A model generated the notes under the pieces. That model searched no databases. It was not told where the DNA came from and saw only the letters and a list, made by a program, of their open reading frames with translations. Both the position numbers and the translations under genes were made by a program. 52,545 nucleotides of DNA from a virus: IMG/VR virus record IMGVR_UViG_3300033144_004328, positions 1 through 52,545 of that record, one strand, 5' to 3'. Of this stretch, positions 23,085 to 44,541 are shown in pieces. Within the stretch, counting starts at the first letter, position 1; the number at the start of each line of letters is the position of its first letter.

Positions 23085-23434
23085 TCAAGAAGGAAGCCGA
23101 CAAGATCGGTAGGCTCATGGCCAAGCAGTTGGGTCAGGCATGGACCATTACCAAGACCAAGCATGGTCGTGGGGACTGGGAAGTCAGTGCCAAGGCGATC
23201 ATCAGCACAGGACGCTGGGATGCGCACTACCACCCCGGTGGGTGTACTGGTTCCCCGGAATCCTACTACGTCACGCTTGGCCCCATTGCGAAGGGGGCCA
23301 GGATATGGACGGTAAGGCGCCCGAACCTGCGTACGGCTGTGCGTGAGCTCAAGAAGCTGGCACTGAACGAAGTCCAGACGCGAGCCAGTCTCCTCAACAT
23401 GCGTTGCTGTTTCAAGGGGGTTAGAAGATCATGA
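23081..23434 (+). CDS. Unrecognised protein, possible paralogue of 22737 (117 aa)
   Basis: It begins with a Lys-rich helix (RLMAKQLGQAWTI), then strands with GRGDWEVSAKAIIS and YYVTLGPIAKGARIW, then a helix with ELKKLALNEVQTRASLL. Length and order of elements match the gene before. No function was recognised. Confidence 0.58.
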   Translation: MIKKEADKIGRLMAKQLGQAWTITKTKHGRGDWEVSAKAIISTGRWDAHYHPGGCTGSPESYYVTLGPIAKGARIWTVRRPNLRTAVRELKKLALNEVQTRASLLNMRCCFKGVRRS

Positions 23435-24504
23435 GCAAGACACTGTGTTTCTTCCACAGCGCAGACAAAGACGGTCATTGTGCCGGTGCCATCGTCCGCA
23501 AGTACTTCGGTGATGATGTCGAGATGATCGGCTGGGACTATGGCGACCCATTCCCATGGGACAAGATCGATGTCCACACCGAGGTGTACATGGTGGACCT
23601 GAGCCTGCAGCCGTGGGAGGACATGGTCCGGCTGAACACCGAGACCAAGAAGTTCGTGTGGATCGACCACCACAAGTCAGCCATCACGGACTACAACGCC
23701 TACGTCGACCACGAGTCGAAGGAGTTCTATGGCGTATGGTCCACGGCCTTCGCTGCTTGTGAGCTGACCTGGCGATATCTGTACCCAGACTTCGAGATGC
23801 CTGAAGCCGTGAAGCTGATCGGCCGATACGACGTTTGGGAGTGGGCTGATACTATAGGCGCCCTTGAGTTCCAGGCCGGTCTAAGGGCCATGGAGACGCT
23901 GCCGACTGATGGCGTCTGGGCCCGCTTGCTCGATGCTAGCTCAGGCTTGTTGGTGCGCAACATCATCGATGATGGTGAAGCGATCATCCGCTACAAGGCG
24001 AAGCAGGATCGTATCCACATCGAGTCCGCTGGCTTCGAGCTGAACTGGGAAGGGCGTACTTGGTTGGCGATCAACGAGATGTTCAACAACTCGAAGCTGT
24101 TCGACTCGATGTTCGATGCCAATGTCTATGCGGGTATGCTGTGCTTCGGCTTCCGCAAAGGGAAGTGGTACGTGAGCCTGTACGCTCCGGACAAGAGTGA
24201 GAGTAGTCTCGACATGGGCGCACTCGCCAAGAAGTACGGAGGCGGCGGCCACCCAGGAGCAGCAGGATTCACTACTCTAGTTCTGCCCTTTCCGCTGGGG
24301 GAGGAGCCGTATTCCTCGGACAAGAAGATCATCGATGGCTCCATCGTTGCTGGTCAGCGCCGTGTCTACGAGAAGCAATACGGCAAGATGGATGAGCTGA
24401 CGCTGTTCAGGCTCAAGCGACTAGCCATAATAGTCGGGCTGAACCCGACGTGCTTGAGCGAGGAAGAGATCATCGCTGGCATCAAGGCATTGGAGGAATC
24501 ATGA
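23431..24504 (+). CDS. DHH/DHHA1-family phosphoesterase (NrnB-like)
   Basis: This is a 357-residue protein. All family marks are visible: H9-S-A-D12-K-D14-G at the N-terminus, VDLSL with D56, IDHH at 78-81, GRYD with D134, and the DHHA1 motif GGGGHPGAAGF at 270-280. DHH proteins bind two manganese ions; the NrnB branch hydrolyses short oligoribonucleotides and some cyclic-nucleotide products. Here it could finish RNA recycling or remove signalling nucleotides; which is an inference. It lies in the accessory operon and overlaps the genes on both sides by four bases. Length fits the family. Confidence 0.85.
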   Translation: MSKTLCFFHSADKDGHCAGAIVRKYFGDDVEMIGWDYGDPFPWDKIDVHTEVYMVDLSLQPWEDMVRLNTETKKFVWIDHHKSAITDYNAYVDHESKEFYGVWSTAFAACELTWRYLYPDFEMPEAVKLIGRYDVWEWADTIGALEFQAGLRAMETLPTDGVWARLLDASSGLLVRNIIDDGEAIIRYKAKQDRIHIESAGFELNWEGRTWLAINEMFNNSKLFDSMFDANVYAGMLCFGFRKGKWYVSLYAPDKSESSLDMGALAKKYGGGGHPGAAGFTTLVLPFPLGEEPYSSDKKIIDGSIVAGQRRVYEKQYGKMDELTLFRLKRLAIIVGLNPTCLSEEEIIAGIKALEES

Positions 24505-24939: not shown

Positions 24940-25153
24940 GGAGTGGTTAGACGATTTGGCCGAGCGCATGGGTGTGGAGCCCCGCAAACCATACCCTGAG
25001 GAGCTGGTGATGATGGTGCGGTTTGGAATCGATGACCCCGAAGTGGACATGGGGTCGGTGGCCCAGAAATTCGTCTGGGGCCGCGAGTCCGAGGACCCGT
25101 GTCATGGGTCGGTGCTGGCTGCGTTGATGGTGGCGAGACTGGAGGGGGAATGA
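24929..25153 (+). CDS. Small acidic protein (74 aa)
   Basis: It is helical (TPEEWLDDLAERMGVEP), with an acidic end. It overlaps both neighbours; GTGGAGGACG lies ahead of the ATG. No family was recognised. Confidence 0.58.
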   Translation: MTPEEWLDDLAERMGVEPRKPYPEELVMMVRFGIDDPEVDMGSVAQKFVWGRESEDPCHGSVLAALMVARLEGE

Positions 25154-25911
25154 CCCAGGGAACCCATGATGTTAGTGAGCTCTGTACGAGATGTGGGCTG
25201 TGCTGTGTAGTACTGCGCGCAACCTGTGAGCTGGAGCAGGCTCAGGCACTAGCTGAATGTGCCGACATCGATGTTCTACGGGTGAGAGATGGTGCGGCAC
25301 CCCACATGGAGGTTGATCCGCCTGAACACGTAGTCATGAGGTTCCCTTGTACCTTCCTCAGGGGCAGAGTCATGAAGGCAGTGAGATGTGCGGCGTATGA
25401 GGGTCCGCGTCCGCCTGTATGTGGATCATACATCTGCAAAGTAGCCTCTAAGTACGCTCTCCGGGAGATCACTCTCGATGAGGGGCTTTCACTCCTTGAT
25501 TTGGCACTGATCCAGAACGATGCCACGATTTTCAATTGGATGGGGACGGAGTCCGAAGCCAAATTGGCTACGAGACACGTCATCCAGAAGCGGATCGAAT
25601 CACTACGGGCTGAGGGCGTCGCTGAAGGACTGGCCCAGTATCTTGTCGCAGCGGCAATGGTGCCTAAGTACGGATTCGCGTCCCAACCCGATCTCGATTT
25701 GATGTGCATGCACCTCAGCAACTACGACGACCGTGAGCAGAGACGCGGAGAGGCGGAGTACGATCCCATCGACGAGGGAGCACTGCCCCTGTACTGTGAC
25801 GAGTCCTTCATACACGAGCTCGACTCCGTGCGTGAGAGGTCCATAGCTTCTACTGCTATAAGATCAGTACTCAAGGAGCTCAGGACGCTGTTCAAGAAGG
25901 AGGACTCATGA
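25150..25911 (+). CDS. YkgJ-like CxxCxxCC metal-binding protein (253 aa)
   Basis: The N-terminus has CTRCGLCC (C12, C15, C18, C19), the hallmark of the YkgJ zinc/iron-chelating family, and further Cys (FPCTF, VRCAAYE, CGSYICK) that complete the site by residue 105. The C-terminal 140 residues are helical and not seen in the basic family. Known members bind Zn or Fe clusters with no firm function. It overlaps the neighbours by four bases. Confidence 0.72.
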   Translation: MTQGTHDVSELCTRCGLCCVVLRATCELEQAQALAECADIDVLRVRDGAAPHMEVDPPEHVVMRFPCTFLRGRVMKAVRCAAYEGPRPPVCGSYICKVASKYALREITLDEGLSLLDLALIQNDATIFNWMGTESEAKLATRHVIQKRIESLRAEGVAEGLAQYLVAAAMVPKYGFASQPDLDLMCMHLSNYDDREQRRGEAEYDPIDEGALPLYCDESFIHELDSVRERSIASTAIRSVLKELRTLFKKEDS

Positions 25912-32467: not shown

Positions 32468-33176
32468 AGAGCAGATCGAAAGTCTGGTAGAAGAGCTCCG
32501 CGTCATGATGGCTACGTCTCGTGTGTCCATGGGGACCAGAACTGGCCAGTACGAGAAGCTCTGTACCTTGGCAGGTGTTGAGCCGTCGCTGTTCTCCTGG
32601 AACGAAGTCGTCGTCATGATCGAGCAGAAGCTCATGCCACAACCGAGTCGGACCGTTACGCTATCCGATTACGCGGAAGCCATGCGTAGTCGTGTCTCAG
32701 ACCTCGAGGCGCGTCTCCGGGACCAGGACCAAGACACAGTGACGGAGTCCGCGGACCCCGAAACGAAGGTATTCCGGGCGGTGAGTGATCTCCACCTACT
32801 GGGAATCGTGGTGAAAGACGGTGGTTACGGTTCTGTGTCCTCGATGATCAAGGACGCCGCTGACCTACTGGTAAAGGAGCTGCCATGCTCCCCGGGGTGT
32901 CGAGGCGTGACCGCGTTCGCGACTGAGGTCCCTGCTGGGTTCGTACACGTCAAGCGTTGTGATGCGTGCGATAAGTTCGAGAGCAACGAAGAAGCTGCGG
33001 AATCGATCACCAAGCACGTGTTCCACTACTGCACCGACTGCGGGCGTGTCTCCCTTAGCCCGTGCTCGGAGACAGCCCTCGGGGGGCACATCATTCGTCA
33101 ACATCGAGACAATGTCGTAGTCGTCATCACAGAAGCCGCGGCACGAGAAGCCGGGCTAACGACGGGGAGGGGCTAG
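32457..33176 (+). CDS. Helical protein with C-terminal zinc domain (239 aa)
   Basis: TGGAGGGAAACC precedes the ATG. Residues 1-135 are helical with a coil (RSRVSDLEARLRDQDQD). The C-terminal part has HVKRCDACDKFES, then YCTDCG and HIIRQH, the same domain as at the end of the protein at 21073. Two zinc sites seem likely. Confidence 0.64.
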   Translation: MVSEEQIESLVEELRVMMATSRVSMGTRTGQYEKLCTLAGVEPSLFSWNEVVVMIEQKLMPQPSRTVTLSDYAEAMRSRVSDLEARLRDQDQDTVTESADPETKVFRAVSDLHLLGIVVKDGGYGSVSSMIKDAADLLVKELPCSPGCRGVTAFATEVPAGFVHVKRCDACDKFESNEEAAESITKHVFHYCTDCGRVSLSPCSETALGGHIIRQHRDNVVVVITEAAAREAGLTTGRG

Positions 33177-33178
33177 GA

Positions 33179-33574
33179 ATGAACGGCGATGGACAGACCA
33201 TACCGGGCGCCAAAGCGACCCCGGAAGTCACGCTACCCCTATTGCTGTTCCGGATCGACCAGCTCGTGGAGTATGTCACTGGGCTTGGTGCCTCCTGGAA
33301 GCAGTTCAGCGAGGAGCAGACCCGCAGGTTCGAGGCCCTGATGGAGAACATGCCGAACTTCGGGGCTGAGGCCGTGAAGGAGCAGAACCGCTTCAACGCA
33401 GAAGATCGTATCCGTCAGTACAGGGACAACATGGCCTATGAGTTGTTCAAGACGGCTGTGGAAATGCCGAGCTACGATACCGTGATCGAGAGCCCCAGGG
33501 ACTTGGCCAAGAGGTGCTGGGGCTTGGCTGAGGAGTTCGTGCGTGAGTACCCAGAGGGGGAAAAGGCTACGTGA
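33179..33574 (+). CDS. Helical protein (131 aa)
   Basis: GGGAGGGGCTAGGA precedes the ATG. Amphipathic helices (LLFRIDQLVEYVTGLGASWK; DRIRQYRDNMAYELFKTAVE) make up most of it. No family was recognised. Confidence 0.6.
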   Translation: MNGDGQTIPGAKATPEVTLPLLLFRIDQLVEYVTGLGASWKQFSEEQTRRFEALMENMPNFGAEAVKEQNRFNAEDRIRQYRDNMAYELFKTAVEMPSYDTVIESPRDLAKRCWGLAEEFVREYPEGEKAT

Positions 33575-34176
33575 ACACCCTGATCACCTACCCTCGCACA
33601 GGTACGTACTGGACACGTCACCGCATCCAGATCTTCAGGCAGCTGTACACAGCGGGTGGTAGGGACCGGCCGAATGCGAACTTCTCTCATGGACCTTACC
33701 ATCCTCGGTTCCATGACTGTGACGGCCCAATGGACATCCTGCCCGGCAAGTGGTTCGCCATGATGCGGGATGCTAAGCAGTGTGTGGTGTCGAACTGGCA
33801 TTGGATCAAGACTCGTAGTACGCTCAACCACCCGGACTACGAGACTCTTGAAGCCTATGCAGTCTACGGGGCTAAGAGGTACGCCCACTACCTGAACTGG
33901 CTCGCTGGGTTGGACCTCGAGGACGTGTATGCCTACGAAGATGCTGGGACGGAGCAGTTCGTTCGGACAGAGATACCTAGGCTGTTGGGTATCGACTTCG
34001 AGCCAGATGATGATCTTGTGGCCAAGGTCATGCTTGAGGGCGCTGCAAAGATAAACCTGGTTGGGGCCGATCATGACACTGTCCCAGCGAAGCTCCTCGA
34101 GGTCATCGACGACGTGATCTGGGGTGAGGTGCGTAACAAACGTTACCAGGAACGCTACCTGAAGGAGGGACTATGA
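33571..34176 (+). CDS. Sulfotransferase-like protein (201 aa)
   Basis: It starts with GTG overlapping the previous TGA. Residues 6-14 read TYPRTGTYW, matching the PAPS 5'-phosphosulfate loop (SYPRSGTTW). Residues 66-77, RDAKQCVVSNWH, match the 3'-phosphate-binding motif (RDPxDVxVS). Between them FSHGPYHPRFHD could hold the acceptor-site His. These are the two conserved nucleotide-binding motifs of cytosolic-type sulfotransferases, shortened from the usual 260-300 residues. It would transfer sulfate from PAPS to a sugar, lipid or small molecule; the target is unknown. Confidence 0.72.
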   Translation: MNTLITYPRTGTYWTRHRIQIFRQLYTAGGRDRPNANFSHGPYHPRFHDCDGPMDILPGKWFAMMRDAKQCVVSNWHWIKTRSTLNHPDYETLEAYAVYGAKRYAHYLNWLAGLDLEDVYAYEDAGTEQFVRTEIPRLLGIDFEPDDDLVAKVMLEGAAKINLVGADHDTVPAKLLEVIDDVIWGEVRNKRYQERYLKEGL

Positions 34177-34712
34177 GCGAGCAGAGCCTCTACGAAGAGC
34201 TGATCGAAGCCCGGCAGTGCCACCAAGAGACCTTGCTCCGTGCTCAAGCAGCGGAACGGGATGCGGCTACTGCTAGAGCAGAGAGTCGTAGCGAAGTGCT
34301 GAGGCGAGTGGCCGCTGAAGAACGAGCCGACGATTGGGTTGAGAAGACCCGTGCGGCAGAGAAGAGGTGTGGCGCCCTTCGCATCAAGGTCAATGAGCTC
34401 TCAGCAAAGGGCAACGTCTTGGGGAAGCCTCATGCCCGCGCAGATACCCTCGCTGCTGAGGTTGATGAGCTGCGTGAGAAAGTAGGCATGCTGGGCGAAG
34501 AGATCATGAAGGCAGTAACGTGTCTCGAGGCCCTGGTTGGCTATCACTGCTTGCCCTCTAAGGGCGAGTCGAAGCTGTTGGGGCTAGTGGGCCTCGTCAA
34601 GCTCAAGTATGAACAGGCTATCGAGGATCGCGCCGCGATCCACAAGTCCTTCGGCGTTTGTCCGCACTGCATCAAGGCCATGACGTACTGTAGCTGCGGT
34701 AAGACTCCCTGA
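34173..34712 (+). CDS. Coiled-coil protein with C-terminal Cys knuckle (179 aa)
   Basis: A long coil covers residues 5-120 (RAQAAERDAATARAESRSEV; DTLAAEVDELREKVGML). The end has CPHC...CSCG, a zinc knuckle. GALRIKVNELSAK echoes the coil family to the left. It is the last gene before the copied promoter cassette. Confidence 0.62.
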   Translation: MSEQSLYEELIEARQCHQETLLRAQAAERDAATARAESRSEVLRRVAAEERADDWVEKTRAAEKRCGALRIKVNELSAKGNVLGKPHARADTLAAEVDELREKVGMLGEEIMKAVTCLEALVGYHCLPSKGESKLLGLVGLVKLKYEQAIEDRAAIHKSFGVCPHCIKAMTYCSCGKTP

Positions 34713-36683: not shown

Positions 36684-36693
36684 GCCCCAGAGT

Positions 36694-36703
36694 TGGTACA
36701 AGA
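36694..36703 (+). promoter_or_regulatory. Promoter-like motif TGGTACAAGA
   Basis: It lies 41 bases before the start at 36745. Between them GAGCTAGGACCCTAGCTC is a small hairpin, so the leader may be folded. Confidence 0.58.
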
Positions 36704-36744
36704 CCTTCGAGCTAGGACCCTAGCTCAGGAAAGGAGCAGGATGA

Positions 36745-37047
36745 ATGATGGAGCTACGAAGCGTTCCCAGGGAAGAGGCAGAAGCCCACGTCGCAGCTGG
36801 TGGCGGGGCCTTCTTCCTCCTGGACCGGACCGGGGATTCAAAGACGGTCTGGGATCCGACTCGTCCCGCCGAGGTGGAGGCGGCTCAGGCTCAGTTCAAC
36901 AAGCTCGTCACCTGCCCGGCTCCCGGCGAAAAGCCGTACTCCGCGTTCCGGGCCACGGCGGACGGAGAGAAGTCCTCCCAGAAGATGACCAAGTTCGACC
37001 CGAAGGCGGGGGCAGTGATCCTGGTACCACCGATGGCCGGAGGCTGA
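36745..37047 (+). CDS. Small protein ending in Gly-Gly (100 aa)
   Basis: AAAGGAG precedes a cluster of ATGs. It reads MELRSVPREEAEAHVAAGGG, a short beta hairpin with a Gly turn, then strands and a C-terminus FDPKAGAVILVPPMAGG. The FDP...PPMAGG ending occurs in other small phage proteins in my memory. A bare C-terminal Gly-Gly is reminiscent of ubiquitin-like modifiers, but the fold does not clearly match. A second frame stays open across the whole gene and becomes coding just past its end. Confidence 0.65.
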   Translation: MMELRSVPREEAEAHVAAGGGAFFLLDRTGDSKTVWDPTRPAEVEAAQAQFNKLVTCPAPGEKPYSAFRATADGEKSSQKMTKFDPKAGAVILVPPMAGG

Positions 37048-37958
37048 GGACACCAAGCGTCACGGTCTACACGGAGTCGGTATCCACTGATCTGGACGGG
37101 GCATCTCACCACGTCTTCAGGGATCGACACGGCAACACGTACCATGTCGACAACTCGGCGCTGCTCCGGGACTTGAGACAGTTCATCGGCCAACCCCAGA
37201 CACCGGAGGTGCTCGTGGACGTTGAGCGTGTCATTCAGGAACAGATGTGGACGAGCTGGGTGACGGCGGGGTCCGCCAATGGCTTCGTTGTGGATCGCTC
37301 CAGCGTCGATGTGTGGGCGACCTTCTCCAATGGTAGTGCATCGAGCAGCTCAGTCACTCTCAATATTGACGACAGCACGTCCGGCCCCCTGTTCCCCTTG
37401 TTCCAGGCCACATCCGACAACACCCCGCCGTTCTGGCAGGACTGGGCTGCCAACCCTCAGCACATGTCTCATGGTCGTCGTGTCCCGATGGACCCGCCCT
37501 TCCCTTCGTTCTCGGAGACAGAGGAGGAGAAGGCGCAGCGCATCATCCGTCGGCAGCAGGAGCGCGAGCGCTGGGAGATAGAGCGTCTACAGCGGGATGT
37601 CGAGCTCAAGGCCTCCCAGATACAGGCGGCTGCCCTTCTGGACTCGCTTCTGGATGAGGTGCAGCAGGCTTCCTTGCAAGAGGAGGACTGGTTCTTGGTC
37701 ATGGGCAGTTCGGGGAACGTCTACAGGCTGCGTAGGGGACGAATTGGGAACATTGATCTTGTCAGTCCGGAAGGCAAGATCTTGAAGACCTTCTGCGTCC
37801 ACCCGGGTATCCACCTCCCGAACGCTGATGATCTCATTGCTCAGAAGCTGCATCTCGAGACCGATGAGGAATCACTCCTCAAGATCGCCAATCCCCACCA
37901 TGTCTACCATGGCCAGGCTCCGGTCATCGATATCAGGAAGCATCTCAAGGCAGCATAG
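37044..37958 (+). CDS. Conserved-looking phage protein with unclear start (304 aa)
   Basis: Coding sequence begins at or before SVTVYTESVSTDLDG. There is no ATG until 37246 and no proper ribosome-binding site; a CTG at 37044 overlaps the upstream TGA. Alternatives are a -1 frameshift from the gene before, a non-standard start with coupling, or a sequence error. The middle is beta-rich (VDVWATFSNGSASSSSVTLN), followed by a coil (RQQERERWEIERLQRDVELK) and a C-terminal beta domain (DWFLVMGSSGNVYRLRRG). No family was recognised. Confidence 0.6.
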   Translation: MRTPSVTVYTESVSTDLDGASHHVFRDRHGNTYHVDNSALLRDLRQFIGQPQTPEVLVDVERVIQEQMWTSWVTAGSANGFVVDRSSVDVWATFSNGSASSSSVTLNIDDSTSGPLFPLFQATSDNTPPFWQDWAANPQHMSHGRRVPMDPPFPSFSETEEEKAQRIIRRQQERERWEIERLQRDVELKASQIQAAALLDSLLDEVQQASLQEEDWFLVMGSSGNVYRLRRGRIGNIDLVSPEGKILKTFCVHPGIHLPNADDLIAQKLHLETDEESLLKIANPHHVYHGQAPVIDIRKHLKAA

Positions 37959-38239: not shown

Positions 38240-38254
38240 GAGGAGGTGAGGGTT

Positions 38255-40285
38255 ATGTTCAAGCAATTCAAAGAGGCAGTTGCCCGCCAGTTCGAGGTGA
38301 TGAAGGGCCATCAGCTCTTCAGGACCGACGTCGAGAAGGAATTGATGTGGCTCACGTACCTCGATAGCTTCCCCGAGGGGAGCAATCCGATGATGCGGGA
38401 GCGGACTGAGCACGACTGCCAAAGCTGCAAGTCCTTCATCCGCGCTGTGGGGAGCATGATCGCCATCATCGATGGGGAGTTGGTATCCCTGTGGGACTGT
38501 GAAGTCGACCACCCCTACGACGTAGTGGCGAAGGAGCTCAGCGAGCTTGTCAAGAGTACGTTGATCAAAAATGTGCTCTTGCATGACCAGACATCGGCAG
38601 GAGTGGACAAGAACCATCAGGACCTTGATGGGGAGGTGCTGACATGGGAGCACTTCCACATCGTCTTGCCGCAGGCCTACGTGAGCCAAGACCGAGGGGC
38701 GGTCTATGGTGAGAAGCAGTCGACGAAGGACGTCTTCGCTCGGGCCCTCAAGGAGATCAGCCTCGACGCCATTGAGACGGTGATCGAGCTCGTCGACCAG
38801 GGCTCGCTCTACCGCGGCGAGGAGCATCTCCATTCGGTGCAGGCGTTCCTCGTACTGAAGAAGTGGTACGACAAGATCGATGATGAAGAGGAGAGGGACG
38901 TCTTCGTCTGGCAGCAGGGTCAGTCGCCGGCGGTCACAAAGATCCGAAGCTCAGCCATCGGCACGTTGCTAGTCGACCTCTCAGAGGGCAAGGGCCTGGA
39001 CGCATCTGTCCGCAGCTTTGAGGCGAAGGTCGCTCCGTCGAACTACAAGAGGCCAAAGGCCCTGGTCACCAAGGCGATGATCGAGAGGGCACGTAAGTTG
39101 GTGGAGGAGTTGGGCTACGGCTCAGCCCTCGGCAGGCGGTTCGCTGTCGTGGAGGACATCACCATCAACAATGTCTTGTTCGCCAATCGGGACGCGCGGC
39201 AGGCCATGAGTGCTGACGTGTTCGACGAGCTCATCTCCAGCACTAGGGATGATCCGAAGAGCCTGGAGAAAGTCGAGAAGGTGCCCATCGAGAAGTTCGT
39301 GGAGGACATCCTCCCGAAGGTGACCTCTATCGAGCTCCTCTTCGAGAACAGGCACGCAGGGAGCCTGGTCAACCTCGTGGCGCCCATGGACCCGGAGGCC
39401 CCTTCGATCTTGAAGTGGGGCAACAACTTCACGTGGAGCTACGCCGGCGATGTCGCTGACTCCATTCGTGAGCGGGTCAAAGCTCGTGGCGGCAGCATCA
39501 CGGGGGAATTCCGGGCCTCGTTGGCTTGGTTCAACTCCGACGACCTCGATCTGCACCTAGTCGAGCCGGGTCCCCGTGGTGGGCGTAGCGGAGAGCACAT
39601 CCACTTCTCGCACAAGAGCTCGATGAGTGGGTCCATGGGTGAGCTCGACGTCGACATGAACGTCGGCACCTCGGGGCCTCAATTCTCCCGCAACGCTGTC
39701 GAGAACATCACCTACCCGCAGCGCAGCCGGATGCTCGAGGGGCCGTACCATCTCTTCGTCAACCAGTACACCCACCGGGAGCACGAGGACGCGGGGTTCG
39801 AGGTCGAGCTTGAGTTCGGCGGTGAGACGATCACCTTTGCCTACGACCGCGAGGTACGGCCCCGCCAGAACGTTACCGTGGCGAAGTTCACCTTCTCCCA
39901 CAAGGAGGGGCTGAAGATCGTCGAGTCGCTTCCCCGCCAAGACGTCTCGAAGACGCTGTGGAACCTGCCGACGCACTCGTTCCATCCAGTCACGCTGGTG
40001 ATGATGAGCCCGAACCACTGGAACGGTAGGCCTGTAGGCAACCGCCACTGGTTCTTCATGCTTCAAGGGTGTACGCGAGAAGGCAGTTCTCGGGGCTTCT
40101 TCAACGAGCAGCTCTCTGATGATCTCCGAGAGCACCGTAAAGTCTTCGAGATCCTTGGTGGGAGGATGAGGACCGCGGATGAGGGAGAGCAGCTCAGCGG
40201 CCTAGGCTTCTCCTCGACACAGCGAAACAACGTGTTCGCCAAGGTCGCGGGCGCGTTCACCAGAACCATCAACATCACGTTCTAG
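38255..40285 (+). CDS. Conserved large phage protein with C-terminal YfaP-like sandwich (676 aa)
   Basis: GGAGG lies eight bases before the ATG. Residues 50-95 hold the strongly patterned ERTEHDCQSCKSFIRAVG and a following strand-turn-strand (IIDGELVSLWDCEV), typical of a protein family widespread in phages of unknown function. Residues 100-430 are helical. Residues 440-545 resemble a YfaP/DUF2135-type beta sandwich: RASLAWFNSDDLDLHLVEP, then GELDVDMN with conserved Asp, then a strand-rich end. The remaining part is a mixed domain. It is the largest non-structural gene of the window and must matter to the phage. Confidence 0.7.
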   Translation: MFKQFKEAVARQFEVMKGHQLFRTDVEKELMWLTYLDSFPEGSNPMMRERTEHDCQSCKSFIRAVGSMIAIIDGELVSLWDCEVDHPYDVVAKELSELVKSTLIKNVLLHDQTSAGVDKNHQDLDGEVLTWEHFHIVLPQAYVSQDRGAVYGEKQSTKDVFARALKEISLDAIETVIELVDQGSLYRGEEHLHSVQAFLVLKKWYDKIDDEEERDVFVWQQGQSPAVTKIRSSAIGTLLVDLSEGKGLDASVRSFEAKVAPSNYKRPKALVTKAMIERARKLVEELGYGSALGRRFAVVEDITINNVLFANRDARQAMSADVFDELISSTRDDPKSLEKVEKVPIEKFVEDILPKVTSIELLFENRHAGSLVNLVAPMDPEAPSILKWGNNFTWSYAGDVADSIRERVKARGGSITGEFRASLAWFNSDDLDLHLVEPGPRGGRSGEHIHFSHKSSMSGSMGELDVDMNVGTSGPQFSRNAVENITYPQRSRMLEGPYHLFVNQYTHREHEDAGFEVELEFGGETITFAYDREVRPRQNVTVAKFTFSHKEGLKIVESLPRQDVSKTLWNLPTHSFHPVTLVMMSPNHWNGRPVGNRHWFFMLQGCTREGSSRGFFNEQLSDDLREHRKVFEILGGRMRTADEGEQLSGLGFSSTQRNNVFAKVAGAFTRTINITF

Positions 40286-41600: not shown

Positions 41601-42567
41601 GAAAGCACTGCTAAGGGCGCTGGCGATAGGCGAAGACAGCGGCATCCAGGATGCGTACGATGCCATGATGAAAGACCATGACGTCGAGCCGGCGGTGTTC
41701 AGGCACGAGTCCGCGATCACGGGAATCCGCACTGATATCGCGGCCTTAGCGATTGACCTCGAGAAGCTCGAGGGCCGCGTCAAGAGTACGGAGATCACCC
41801 GCATCCGGCTGAAGCGAGTCGACTGGGCCTATGACGTCGTGAGTGATCGCCTCCGCAAGCTGGAGGGGTCCTTGATCCAGAAGAGGCTTGATGGTGAGCC
41901 TTCGATGCGGACCTTGGGCTACCTCAGAAGCACCGGCAAGATGAACAAGAGCGGCGAGGTCGGGTATCTGAACTCAGCCCCGATCCAGTCGAGCTACTGG
42001 GTTGTTAGGGCAGGTGAGCTCCAGCTCAAGGAGCCACTCGTACCCAAGCCCAACGATGTCTTCTTCGTGAAGTGCTTCACCGATGACGGCAAAGTCGTGT
42101 ACTCGAAGGCTTGGATGTTCGATGCCGTAGACTGGCAGAGCACCGATGCACTCCAGACCCGAGACGCGCCCATGGGTGCTAGGTTCATCGAAGGCAAAGA
42201 GCTCATCGACTACGTCATGAACATCGACAAGACCGAGGACACCCACCTCTACGAGCTATTCCGTAGGATCGGTGGCTATATCAGCGATGCCGAAAAGGAA
42301 GGCTCCTTGCTCAACTCCGAGAAGGTGGAGCTTCGCCAAGTATGCGAAGGCGTCTTGGATATCGTCGATCCTGATGCCAAGTCCCGGTACGAGCTGGAGC
42401 GGATCATGGGGAAGGTGACGTGGGACCTTCTTAGCGATCAGAAGGCTGGCTTGGTCGCCATGCGAATGTCCGGGCTCATGGACACCGACTTCCGGGAGAA
42501 GCTCAACGGCATCATCCACCTCATAGACAACCTCGAGGGTTGGTACAAGGAATTTGGAGGTGAGTGA
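41587..42567 (+). CDS. Unrecognised helical/beta protein (326 aa)
   Basis: GTGGAGGGGAAA precedes the ATG. N-terminal helices (ITGIRTDIAALAIDLEKLEG), a beta middle (YWVVRAGELQLKEPLVPKPN; VFFVKCFTDDGKVVYSKAWM), then a long helical end (VELRQVCEGVLDIVDPDAKS). No family was recognised. Confidence 0.62.
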   Translation: MKQTEKALLRALAIGEDSGIQDAYDAMMKDHDVEPAVFRHESAITGIRTDIAALAIDLEKLEGRVKSTEITRIRLKRVDWAYDVVSDRLRKLEGSLIQKRLDGEPSMRTLGYLRSTGKMNKSGEVGYLNSAPIQSSYWVVRAGELQLKEPLVPKPNDVFFVKCFTDDGKVVYSKAWMFDAVDWQSTDALQTRDAPMGARFIEGKELIDYVMNIDKTEDTHLYELFRRIGGYISDAEKEGSLLNSEKVELRQVCEGVLDIVDPDAKSRYELERIMGKVTWDLLSDQKAGLVAMRMSGLMDTDFREKLNGIIHLIDNLEGWYKEFGGE

Positions 42568-42878
42568 TGTCCGCTATGTTCAAGTACCCCCTGGCGCTGA
42601 ACTCCAGGGTGCCCCAGGTCATCGAGATGGTGCTACCCGCGAACGGGCGCCGACTCGGTAAGGACCTCGAGGACAACCCCTGTATCTGGGCCATTGCTGA
42701 GCGCGGCCGCCCGAAGGTCAAGGTGCTGATACACACGATCTGCACGGGGCAGACTATGTCCTTCGACCCTGTCGTCGCTATGTCATACCTAGGTGTCATC
42801 AAGGCGCCGGTCTCTAGCGTGGAGCCGTCCATAAACTTGATCTGGCACGTCTTCGTGGATGAGGTGGTGCCGGAATGA
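42567..42878 (+). CDS. Conserved small phage protein, DUF7352-like (103 aa)
   Basis: TTGGAGGTGAGTG precedes the ATG. It starts MSAMFKYPLAL, then VIEMVLPANGRRLG, CIWAIAE and a Gly-Thr turn, the pattern of small beta proteins common in phages (KYPL...LP.GA...LWA...GTG). Probably a small beta barrel. Function unknown. Confidence 0.6.
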   Translation: MSAMFKYPLALNSRVPQVIEMVLPANGRRLGKDLEDNPCIWAIAERGRPKVKVLIHTICTGQTMSFDPVVAMSYLGVIKAPVSSVEPSINLIWHVFVDEVVPE

Positions 42879-43300
42879 GCCATGAAGGATGCCAAAGGTG
42901 CGGGCAGGAGAACGTTGCCAGCGCCTCAGGGAAGGTCGCGGATGCATTCATCTTGACTTGGCCCGGAGGCAAGACCCAAGAAGGCTACGTCCCGCCCAAT
43001 GGCGTCTGTGGCTTGAGGGCAGGGGACAGCCATGACTACATGGAGCTCGACTACTGCATGGCCTGTGGACAGATCCAGGGCAGTTGGCCTCTGGCCTCTG
43101 TCGTCAAGAACCTGCCGGTGCGGAAGTTCGAGTTCGCGTTGTTGTTCGGCTACGGAGAGTGGCAAACCCTGATGCCGACACAAGCCAAAACGGAGGATGA
43201 GGCTTGGGCCCGGATTCGCAGGATCGTTGAGGGCATGCCCGGTGATGGTGTCGTTGGCATTTGCTTGATGCGAGTCAGCGATGTGGAGGATGAGACATGA
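42875..43300 (+). CDS. Zinc-ribbon protein (141 aa)
   Basis: CQRCG near the N-terminus and CMACG near residue 62 make a ribbon. The second half is a strand-helix-strand (FEFALLFGYGEWQTLMPTQA; EDEAWARIRRIVEGMPG). It overlaps neighbours by four bases. Confidence 0.62.
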   Translation: MSHEGCQRCGQENVASASGKVADAFILTWPGGKTQEGYVPPNGVCGLRAGDSHDYMELDYCMACGQIQGSWPLASVVKNLPVRKFEFALLFGYGEWQTLMPTQAKTEDEAWARIRRIVEGMPGDGVVGICLMRVSDVEDET

Positions 43301-44541
43301 TCAATGGTTGGTGGGTGCTATGTCCCAAGTGCCGGCACACCTGGAAGTGGCGCATCACTGCTGATCGCTACAGGCCCGTGAAGACGAAGTGCCCAAAGTG
43401 CAGAGCCATCATTGAGGAGTTCGTCGAGATCAAGGAGGAGGACGTGAAGTCACACGAAGTCAACATCCAAGAGGTCAGGGTCGTAGCAACCGACTCCAAG
43501 AAGCTGACGTTGGTCATCCAGCTCCAGAAGACCTCAGGCTTCCTGAAGCCGTTCAGGGTCGTCGTGCCCGTGGAGGTTGTGGGCTCTGACCTCCAGGCTC
43601 ATGAGCTTGCGGAGCTCATTGGGGAGGAGGGCATCTTCCACGGCGGCCCTGCTCCCACCAACGCCCCGCCAAACACGTGCATGGTCTGCACAGAGCCCGG
43701 AACCCGCATCATCGATGACGTGCCCCTCTGCAACAAGCACTGGATCAAGCACCACCGCATGCGCTGGAAGGAGTGGCGCTGTGGCAAGTGCTCGCACAAG
43801 CAGGAGCAGGAGCTAGAGCACCGCACCCTTGATGATGCTTTGATGTGCCAGCACTGTGGCGCCGTGATGGGCTACTTCATCAACGACGAAGTCTTGATCA
43901 TGAACGAAAAGGTGCATTCGGTCAGCGATACCGACTCCTGGTTCAAGACCGCCAGGTTCCGTGTTGGGGAGCGGGTCCGACTCGATCCGAAGCGCATTGG
44001 GGCTAAGCTCATCGAGGACAAAGGTCCCGGTGTAGTTGCGGAGATCATGCCGTCATACTCCCCGACCAAGATCGGCGTCAAGTTCGACTCGGAGAAGTAC
44101 ATCGAGACCCCGGAGACGAACCTCATGCCCGAAGCCGGCTGGCCCATGGTCGAGAAGAATTGTGCCTGCGGCGAGCCTGCGGGTAAGGTCCCTGAGGACG
44201 AGGCAGCACAGTGTATGGCCTGTTGGGGTGACTCTGACAGGGTCAAGAGGTCGCGGGAGCTATGCTACGCCCCCATGACCAACGACGAGTTCTTGGATCT
44301 CGTCAACGACGTCGCTGATCGTAACAAGCTAACGGTTGGCGATGAGTTCTGCTGTCGGCTCTACGCCAAGGTGATCGGCGACCCGTCTTCGCTGATATCG
44401 ATGTCTGTCACTGAACGGAACAAGTTCGTACGGTTCGTCATGACCAGTCTGGCGTGGGTAGCATCCGACGAGGGGAAACTGAGAGTTGTGGAGATGGCGT
44501 GGTGGATGTCCACGTACAAGGAGCGGCTCAATGCCCGATAG
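43297..44541 (+). CDS. Multi-zinc-finger protein with KOW-like domain (414 aa)
   Basis: The N-terminus WVLCPKCRHTWKWR...KCPKC is a ribbon. Near 128-190 are CMVC, CNKH, CGKC and CQHCG. Residues 215-265 read FRVGERVRLDPKR...VVAEIMP...GVKFDSEKYIE, a KOW/SH3-like barrel. CACG...CMACW follows near 285. The C-terminal 110 residues are helical. Nucleic-acid or RNA-polymerase contacts are plausible from the folds; unproven. Confidence 0.62.
   Translation: MINGWWVLCPKCRHTWKWRITADRYRPVKTKCPKCRAIIEEFVEIKEEDVKSHEVNIQEVRVVATDSKKLTLVIQLQKTSGFLKPFRVVVPVEVVGSDLQAHELAELIGEEGIFHGGPAPTNAPPNTCMVCTEPGTRIIDDVPLCNKHWIKHHRMRWKEWRCGKCSHKQEQELEHRTLDDALMCQHCGAVMGYFINDEVLIMNEKVHSVSDTDSWFKTARFRVGERVRLDPKRIGAKLIEDKGPGVVAEIMPSYSPTKIGVKFDSEKYIETPETNLMPEAGWPMVEKNCACGEPAGKVPEDEAAQCMACWGDSDRVKRSRELCYAPMTNDEFLDLVNDVADRNKLTVGDEFCCRLYAKVIGDPSSLISMSVTERNKFVRFVMTSLAWVASDEGKLRVVEMAWWMSTYKERLNAR

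Follow-up and report, generated by a model that had tools for sequence, protein, structure and literature searches.

The DNA stretch analysed here (the window, 52,545 bases) is the whole IMG/VR virus record IMGVR_UViG_3300033144_004328, which is probably a fragment. All features discussed below as parts of one gene or its direct neighbours lie on the plus strand. At 33571..34176 an open reading frame of 201 codons starts with GTG and stops with TGA at 34174-34176. Its ends overlap the stop of an upstream ORF (33062..33574) and the ATG of a downstream ORF (34173..34712) by 4 bases each. The upstream ORF has no family in Pfam, PHROG or NCBIfam and the downstream ORF no credible one, and a purine-rich, ribosome-binding-like sequence stands before the ATG at 34173. 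With a codon-use score trained on 17 long ORFs of the window, the frame scores +0.212 per codon, compared with -0.307 and -0.644 in the two remaining forward frames and +0.008 in an antisense ORF that overlaps it (33472-34074). Because of this codon use and the short overlaps with both neighbours, 33571-34176 is a genuine gene; a spurious ORF is ruled out by these two observations together with the profile score given below.

The majority of the other window proteins that we searched have no family in Pfam, PHROG or NCBIfam. The clearest family is phrog_1735 at 38246-40285 (865 bits), a conserved protein of 679 aa whose function is not known. Its relatives occur in 508 of 50,697 phage records, all at less than 60% identity, the best being from phiCbK-type Caulobacter phages and from Serratia phages. 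The window also holds a DHH-family phosphoesterase (23431-24504; phrog_4771, E 3.6e-40), a DUF7352 protein above its Pfam cut-off (42564-42878), a protein (43297-44541) whose YnfU-like zinc-binding and Lar-like matches are weak, and a weak match to a CxxCxxCC zinc- or iron-chelating domain, below the cut-off (25099-25911). No APS kinase was found within the 52.5-kb fragment, and the genes around the ORF give no pointer to a sulfate acceptor.

Pfam assigns the 201-aa protein to a single family, Sulfotransfer_1 (PF00685, E 3.8e-4), and at 20.4 bits against a gathering cut-off of 22 bits the protein falls short of membership by the curated score. PHROGs and NCBIfam give no match, and a six-frame PF00685 search of the record returned nothing at 0.001, although hmmscan of the protein itself does match. 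A phmmer search of PDB sequences returned SULT1C3 in each of its two rows (E 0.065 and 0.067). Independent sulfotransferase (SULT) loci were gathered with PF00685 at 1e-5; such loci are present in 172 genomes of a phylum sample of 299, and in 31 of the 148 genomes of a second sample. The SULT profile that we built is iterated and contains 61 ORFs, among them a few duplicate viral ORFs listed under different locus ids. It gives the 201-aa protein 16.9 bits, which corresponds to E 2e-7 when a single comparison is made. The best score was 6.4 bits among the 4,099 shuffles that HMMER reported out of 5,000, the reversed protein reached -0.5 bits, and the next-best ORF of the window 4.8 bits (474 ORFs, 334 reported). 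A comparison by hhalign with a 23-row SULT alignment gave 95% (E 3.8e-8), and the same alignment gave 0.4% with one unrelated window protein. Judged from sequence, the resemblance to sulfotransferases, including both motifs described below, exceeds chance. The preliminary description, which had called this a sulfotransferase-like gene, is thus borne out by the codon use, the overlaps and the profile score, and the protein is a divergent, unusually short member of the sulfotransferase family, with about 20% identity or less to its aligned relatives.

The profiles made from viral sulfotransferases alone give the 201-aa protein only 0.9 to 6.3 bits. The highest of these scores comes from a compact viral subgroup (6.3 bits, equalled or exceeded by 4 of 5,000 shuffles), followed by the profile of all 23 viral sulfotransferases (3.4 bits, 23 shuffles) and two other subgroups (1.6 bits, 51 shuffles; 0.9 bits, 162 shuffles). 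Placement in any viral subgroup fails because these scores are weak and are reached or passed by shuffles.

For the residues of the active site we compared the protein with viral domains, of which 27 are distinct and 24 remained after 3 partial ones were dropped. Alignment A4 joins these 24 to the 201-aa protein (25 rows). The preliminary description had reported both PAPS-binding motifs, and both are present. The 5'-phosphosulfate-binding loop YPRTGTYW (residues 7-14, 33589..33612) fits the pattern [YF]P[KR][ST]G[TN]xW, and in A4 its P8 matches 23 of the 24 viral domains and its G11 all 24. The 3'-phosphate-binding motif RDAKQCVVS (residues 66-74, 33766..33792) has R66 and S74 eight residues apart, as in sulfotransferases. 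The Pro, Arg and second (+4) Asp of the family's RDPRD are changed to A68, K69 and Q70, and RDPRD is invariant in the viral set because the motif scan selected on it. A4 also places a YED at residues 122-124 (33934..33942), whose predicted PAPS-site Tyr we take to be a PAPS contact. The candidate catalytic His stretch, H40...H44...H48 (33688..33714), lies ahead of the 3'-phosphate-binding strand and is ambiguous in the alignments: A4 and A5 set H48 against the conserved His (23 of 24 viral domains in A4), whereas A2 and A3 set H44 against it. In all, P8, R9, G11, T12, W14, R66, S74, W110, Y122 and E123 are kept. The PAPS-binding roles of these and of the changed residues are presumably those known from SULT structures.

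The third PAPS element, which the preliminary description passes over, is different. In A4 the RKGxxGxW of the family corresponds to a degenerate KINLVGAD (residues 160-167, 34048..34071), in which, along I161-N162-L163-V164-G165-A166-D167, Asn replaces the Gly of RKG and Asp replaces the Trp. No GxxGxW occurs in the last 75 residues of the protein. The degenerate call rests on A4 together with this missing GxxGxW, since A2, A3 and A5 align the C-terminal part differently. A C-terminal G...W element is found in 23 of the 24 viral domains by a loose pattern and in 18 by a strict one. Loss of the PAPS pocket had been named in the preliminary description as an outcome that would speak against it; the 5' and 3' motifs are in place and the RKGxxGxW element is degenerate, so the pocket appears to be lost in part.

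This degenerate element makes a SULT-fold protein without catalysis the main rival explanation. Such a protein might bind PAP, PAPS or another nucleotide, or have a structural or inhibitory role. The glutamine at the +4 position and the ambiguous catalytic His are likewise consistent with lost catalysis, as is the length of the protein, which was already described as shortened and which at 201 aa lies below the 213-279 aa of the 24 full-coverage viral domains. The 5' loop, the R66/S74 pair, W110 and Y122 are nevertheless all kept, and sulfotransferase families other than the cytosolic SULTs manage without RKG. We regard lost catalysis as a real although unlikely possibility, and sulfotransferase activity as plausible from the residues present. 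A more far-reaching idea is that a SULT fold stripped of its 3'-phosphate cap has been reused non-enzymatically by the phage, as a binder of nucleotides or PAP that would act as a sponge for, or an inhibitor of, a nucleotide pathway or defence signal of the host; this seems to us very unlikely.

A model of the 201-aa protein from its single sequence was uninformative (pLDDT 36.7). AlphaFold2 with alignment A4 gave pLDDT 76.4 and pTM 0.70, with the lowest confidence in residues 31-50. In a Foldseek search of the PDB, ranks 1-44 all have the sulfotransferase fold. SULT2A1 is first (E 1.8e-4), and rank 40 is retinol dehydratase, which shares this fold. VIA-align superposes the model on SULT2A1 over 191 residues (Z 14.2, rmsd 2.9). 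A different fold, which the preliminary description had given as grounds for rejection, did not emerge from the prediction and is ruled out by these ranks and this Z-score. By homology and model together, the protein is predicted to have the SULT fold, and this call depends on the homology call because the alignment behind the model consists of sulfotransferases. Against BFVD, the best row is an unnamed protein of 215 aa (E 7.9e-5), and among the named rows, at weak E-values, are sulfotransferases from uncultured Caudovirales phages, from a Synechococcus phage and from several viruses of eukaryotes. Weak BFVD rows for kinases, such as thymidylate kinase (prob 0.16), could point to a different P-loop enzyme, for example a nucleotide kinase, or to chance resemblance. 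This explanation is hardly credible in the face of the sulfotransferase fold in PDB rows 1-44, the Z-score, the 3'-phosphate-binding and YED motifs, and the shuffle control.

The search for close relatives covered phages, plasmids, and viral and genome contigs, and found none that would show selection keeping the 201-aa gene. There is no relative among INPHARED phages at E<=1, and the only three rows, at E 4-6, have capsid or head protease annotations. A plasmid search and pattern scans of viral and genome contigs returned no close relative. Of 398 genomes of one phylum, 14 gave a match at E<=0.1, the best of them at 0.0045, where chance alone would give about 40. Two motif scans gave three stretches each, with the motif in an ORF in 2 of the 3, neither of them SULT-like, and no ORF seen in the third; two further scans gave three stretches in all, none a sulfotransferase. 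Another scan gave 18 stretches, of which only that in L021 (IMGVR_UViG_3300033150_000473) proved by profile to carry a SULT ORF. For a second protein of the window (36693-37955) no relative was found either, and one related record reached via the phrog_1735 protein has no PF00685 match.

The preliminary description had considered a phage sulfotransferase unusual. This view is not supported, as phage sulfotransferases are an already known kind of gene, given published reports, the named BFVD entries and our own scan. The interpretation in the preliminary description is thereby supported in part, for the fold and the two motifs. Using one narrow back-translated motif, the IMG/VR scan returned 27 contigs, each with at least one SULT ORF (27/27), and 29 such ORFs in all, 2 of which repeat others. 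In a light check of whether these contigs are all from phages, one flanking protein was taken from each of 10 of the 27, and 3 of the 10 matched a PHROG at 1e-5. For the viral sulfotransferases themselves, 0 of 10 matched a PHROG, and tblastn of two of them against INPHARED gave no match. The 75-kb viral record L021 carries adjacent SULT genes (644-2176 and 2172-2879), the first encoding 511 aa with a SULT domain followed by about 270 residues of no assigned identity. A compact viral group with domains of about 213-244 aa (L097, L098, L099, L102, L103, L105, L112 and L021) has a common pattern from the loop to the C-terminus, and 0 of 7 members compared with PHROGs (all except L102) match.

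In passages of the published work, sulfotransferases with a Synechococcus-phage relative are described from genomes of OM43 phages, and the role of such genes in phages is called unclear (PMC10580990). Sulfotransferases are also mentioned in passages on a virus that is associated with coral and integrated into the genome of a bacterium (PMC11309003), on glacier-ice viruses, where the gene is described as previously reported (PMC8290583), on viruses of an underground estuary (PMC10829341) and on Patescibacteria viruses (PMC12285232). One of these passages proposes a role for viral sulfotransferases in modifying nucleotides or proteins (PMC10829341). This proposal lends itself to the explanation that the protein is an active sulfotransferase which modifies the phage's own virion protein, or its DNA bases or nucleotides, and not the host surface. 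No adjoining modification gene was recognised, which is a weak point against it as most window genes have no known function, and we judge self-modification to be quite unlikely.

The reading that we favour is that 33571-34176 probably encodes a tailed-phage sulfotransferase of the cytosolic type, divergent and compact, that uses host PAPS. The gene would be expressed as one in a series of closely packed accessory genes, and its product would bind PAPS made by the host, which is suggested as the source because the fragment yielded no APS kinase. The His at residue 44 or 48 might act as the base, and the sulfate would be passed to a hydroxyl group on an acceptor in the host. Our first guess for this acceptor is a cell-envelope saccharide or its precursor; sulfation of the envelope could then alter the adsorption of competing phages. 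With the RKGxxGxW cap lost, the protein is predicted to bind PAPS weakly or to have another contact in place of the cap.

Phage sulfotransferases are frequently listed as auxiliary genes, and a single gene by itself leaves the overall picture unchanged. A 201-aa member that retains the 5' loop together with R66 and S74 and is without the usual C-terminal cap would help to define a minimal SULT for the use of PAPS, or alternatively would show the SULT fold reused without catalysis.

Among known systems, the bacterial glycopeptide sulfotransferases Teg12 and Teg14 share their fold with the 201-aa protein (Foldseek ranks 22, 23 and 32), but they are missing from its phmmer rows and provide no link to its acceptor. 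The cytosolic sulfotransferases (PF00685; SULT2A1, SULT1E1, SULT1C3) have a fold in common with it along almost its full length (Z about 14), as well as the YPxxGTxW loop, the R..S motif and the YED. Their chains of about 220-294 residues are longer, identity in the structural rows is 13-18%, and the 201-aa protein differs from them in its degenerate RKGxxGxW and in the Gln in place of the +4 Asp. The viral sulfotransferases of the IMG/VR set are likewise virus-borne, and all 25 rows of A4, including the 201-aa protein, match PF00685 at E<=0.001; the protein is without the C-terminal G...W element of 23 of these 24 domains and without their RDPRD, on which the scan selected. The BFVD entries named 'Sulfotransferase family', from uncultured Caudovirales phages and Synechococcus phage ACG-2014f, are likewise SULT genes carried by viruses.
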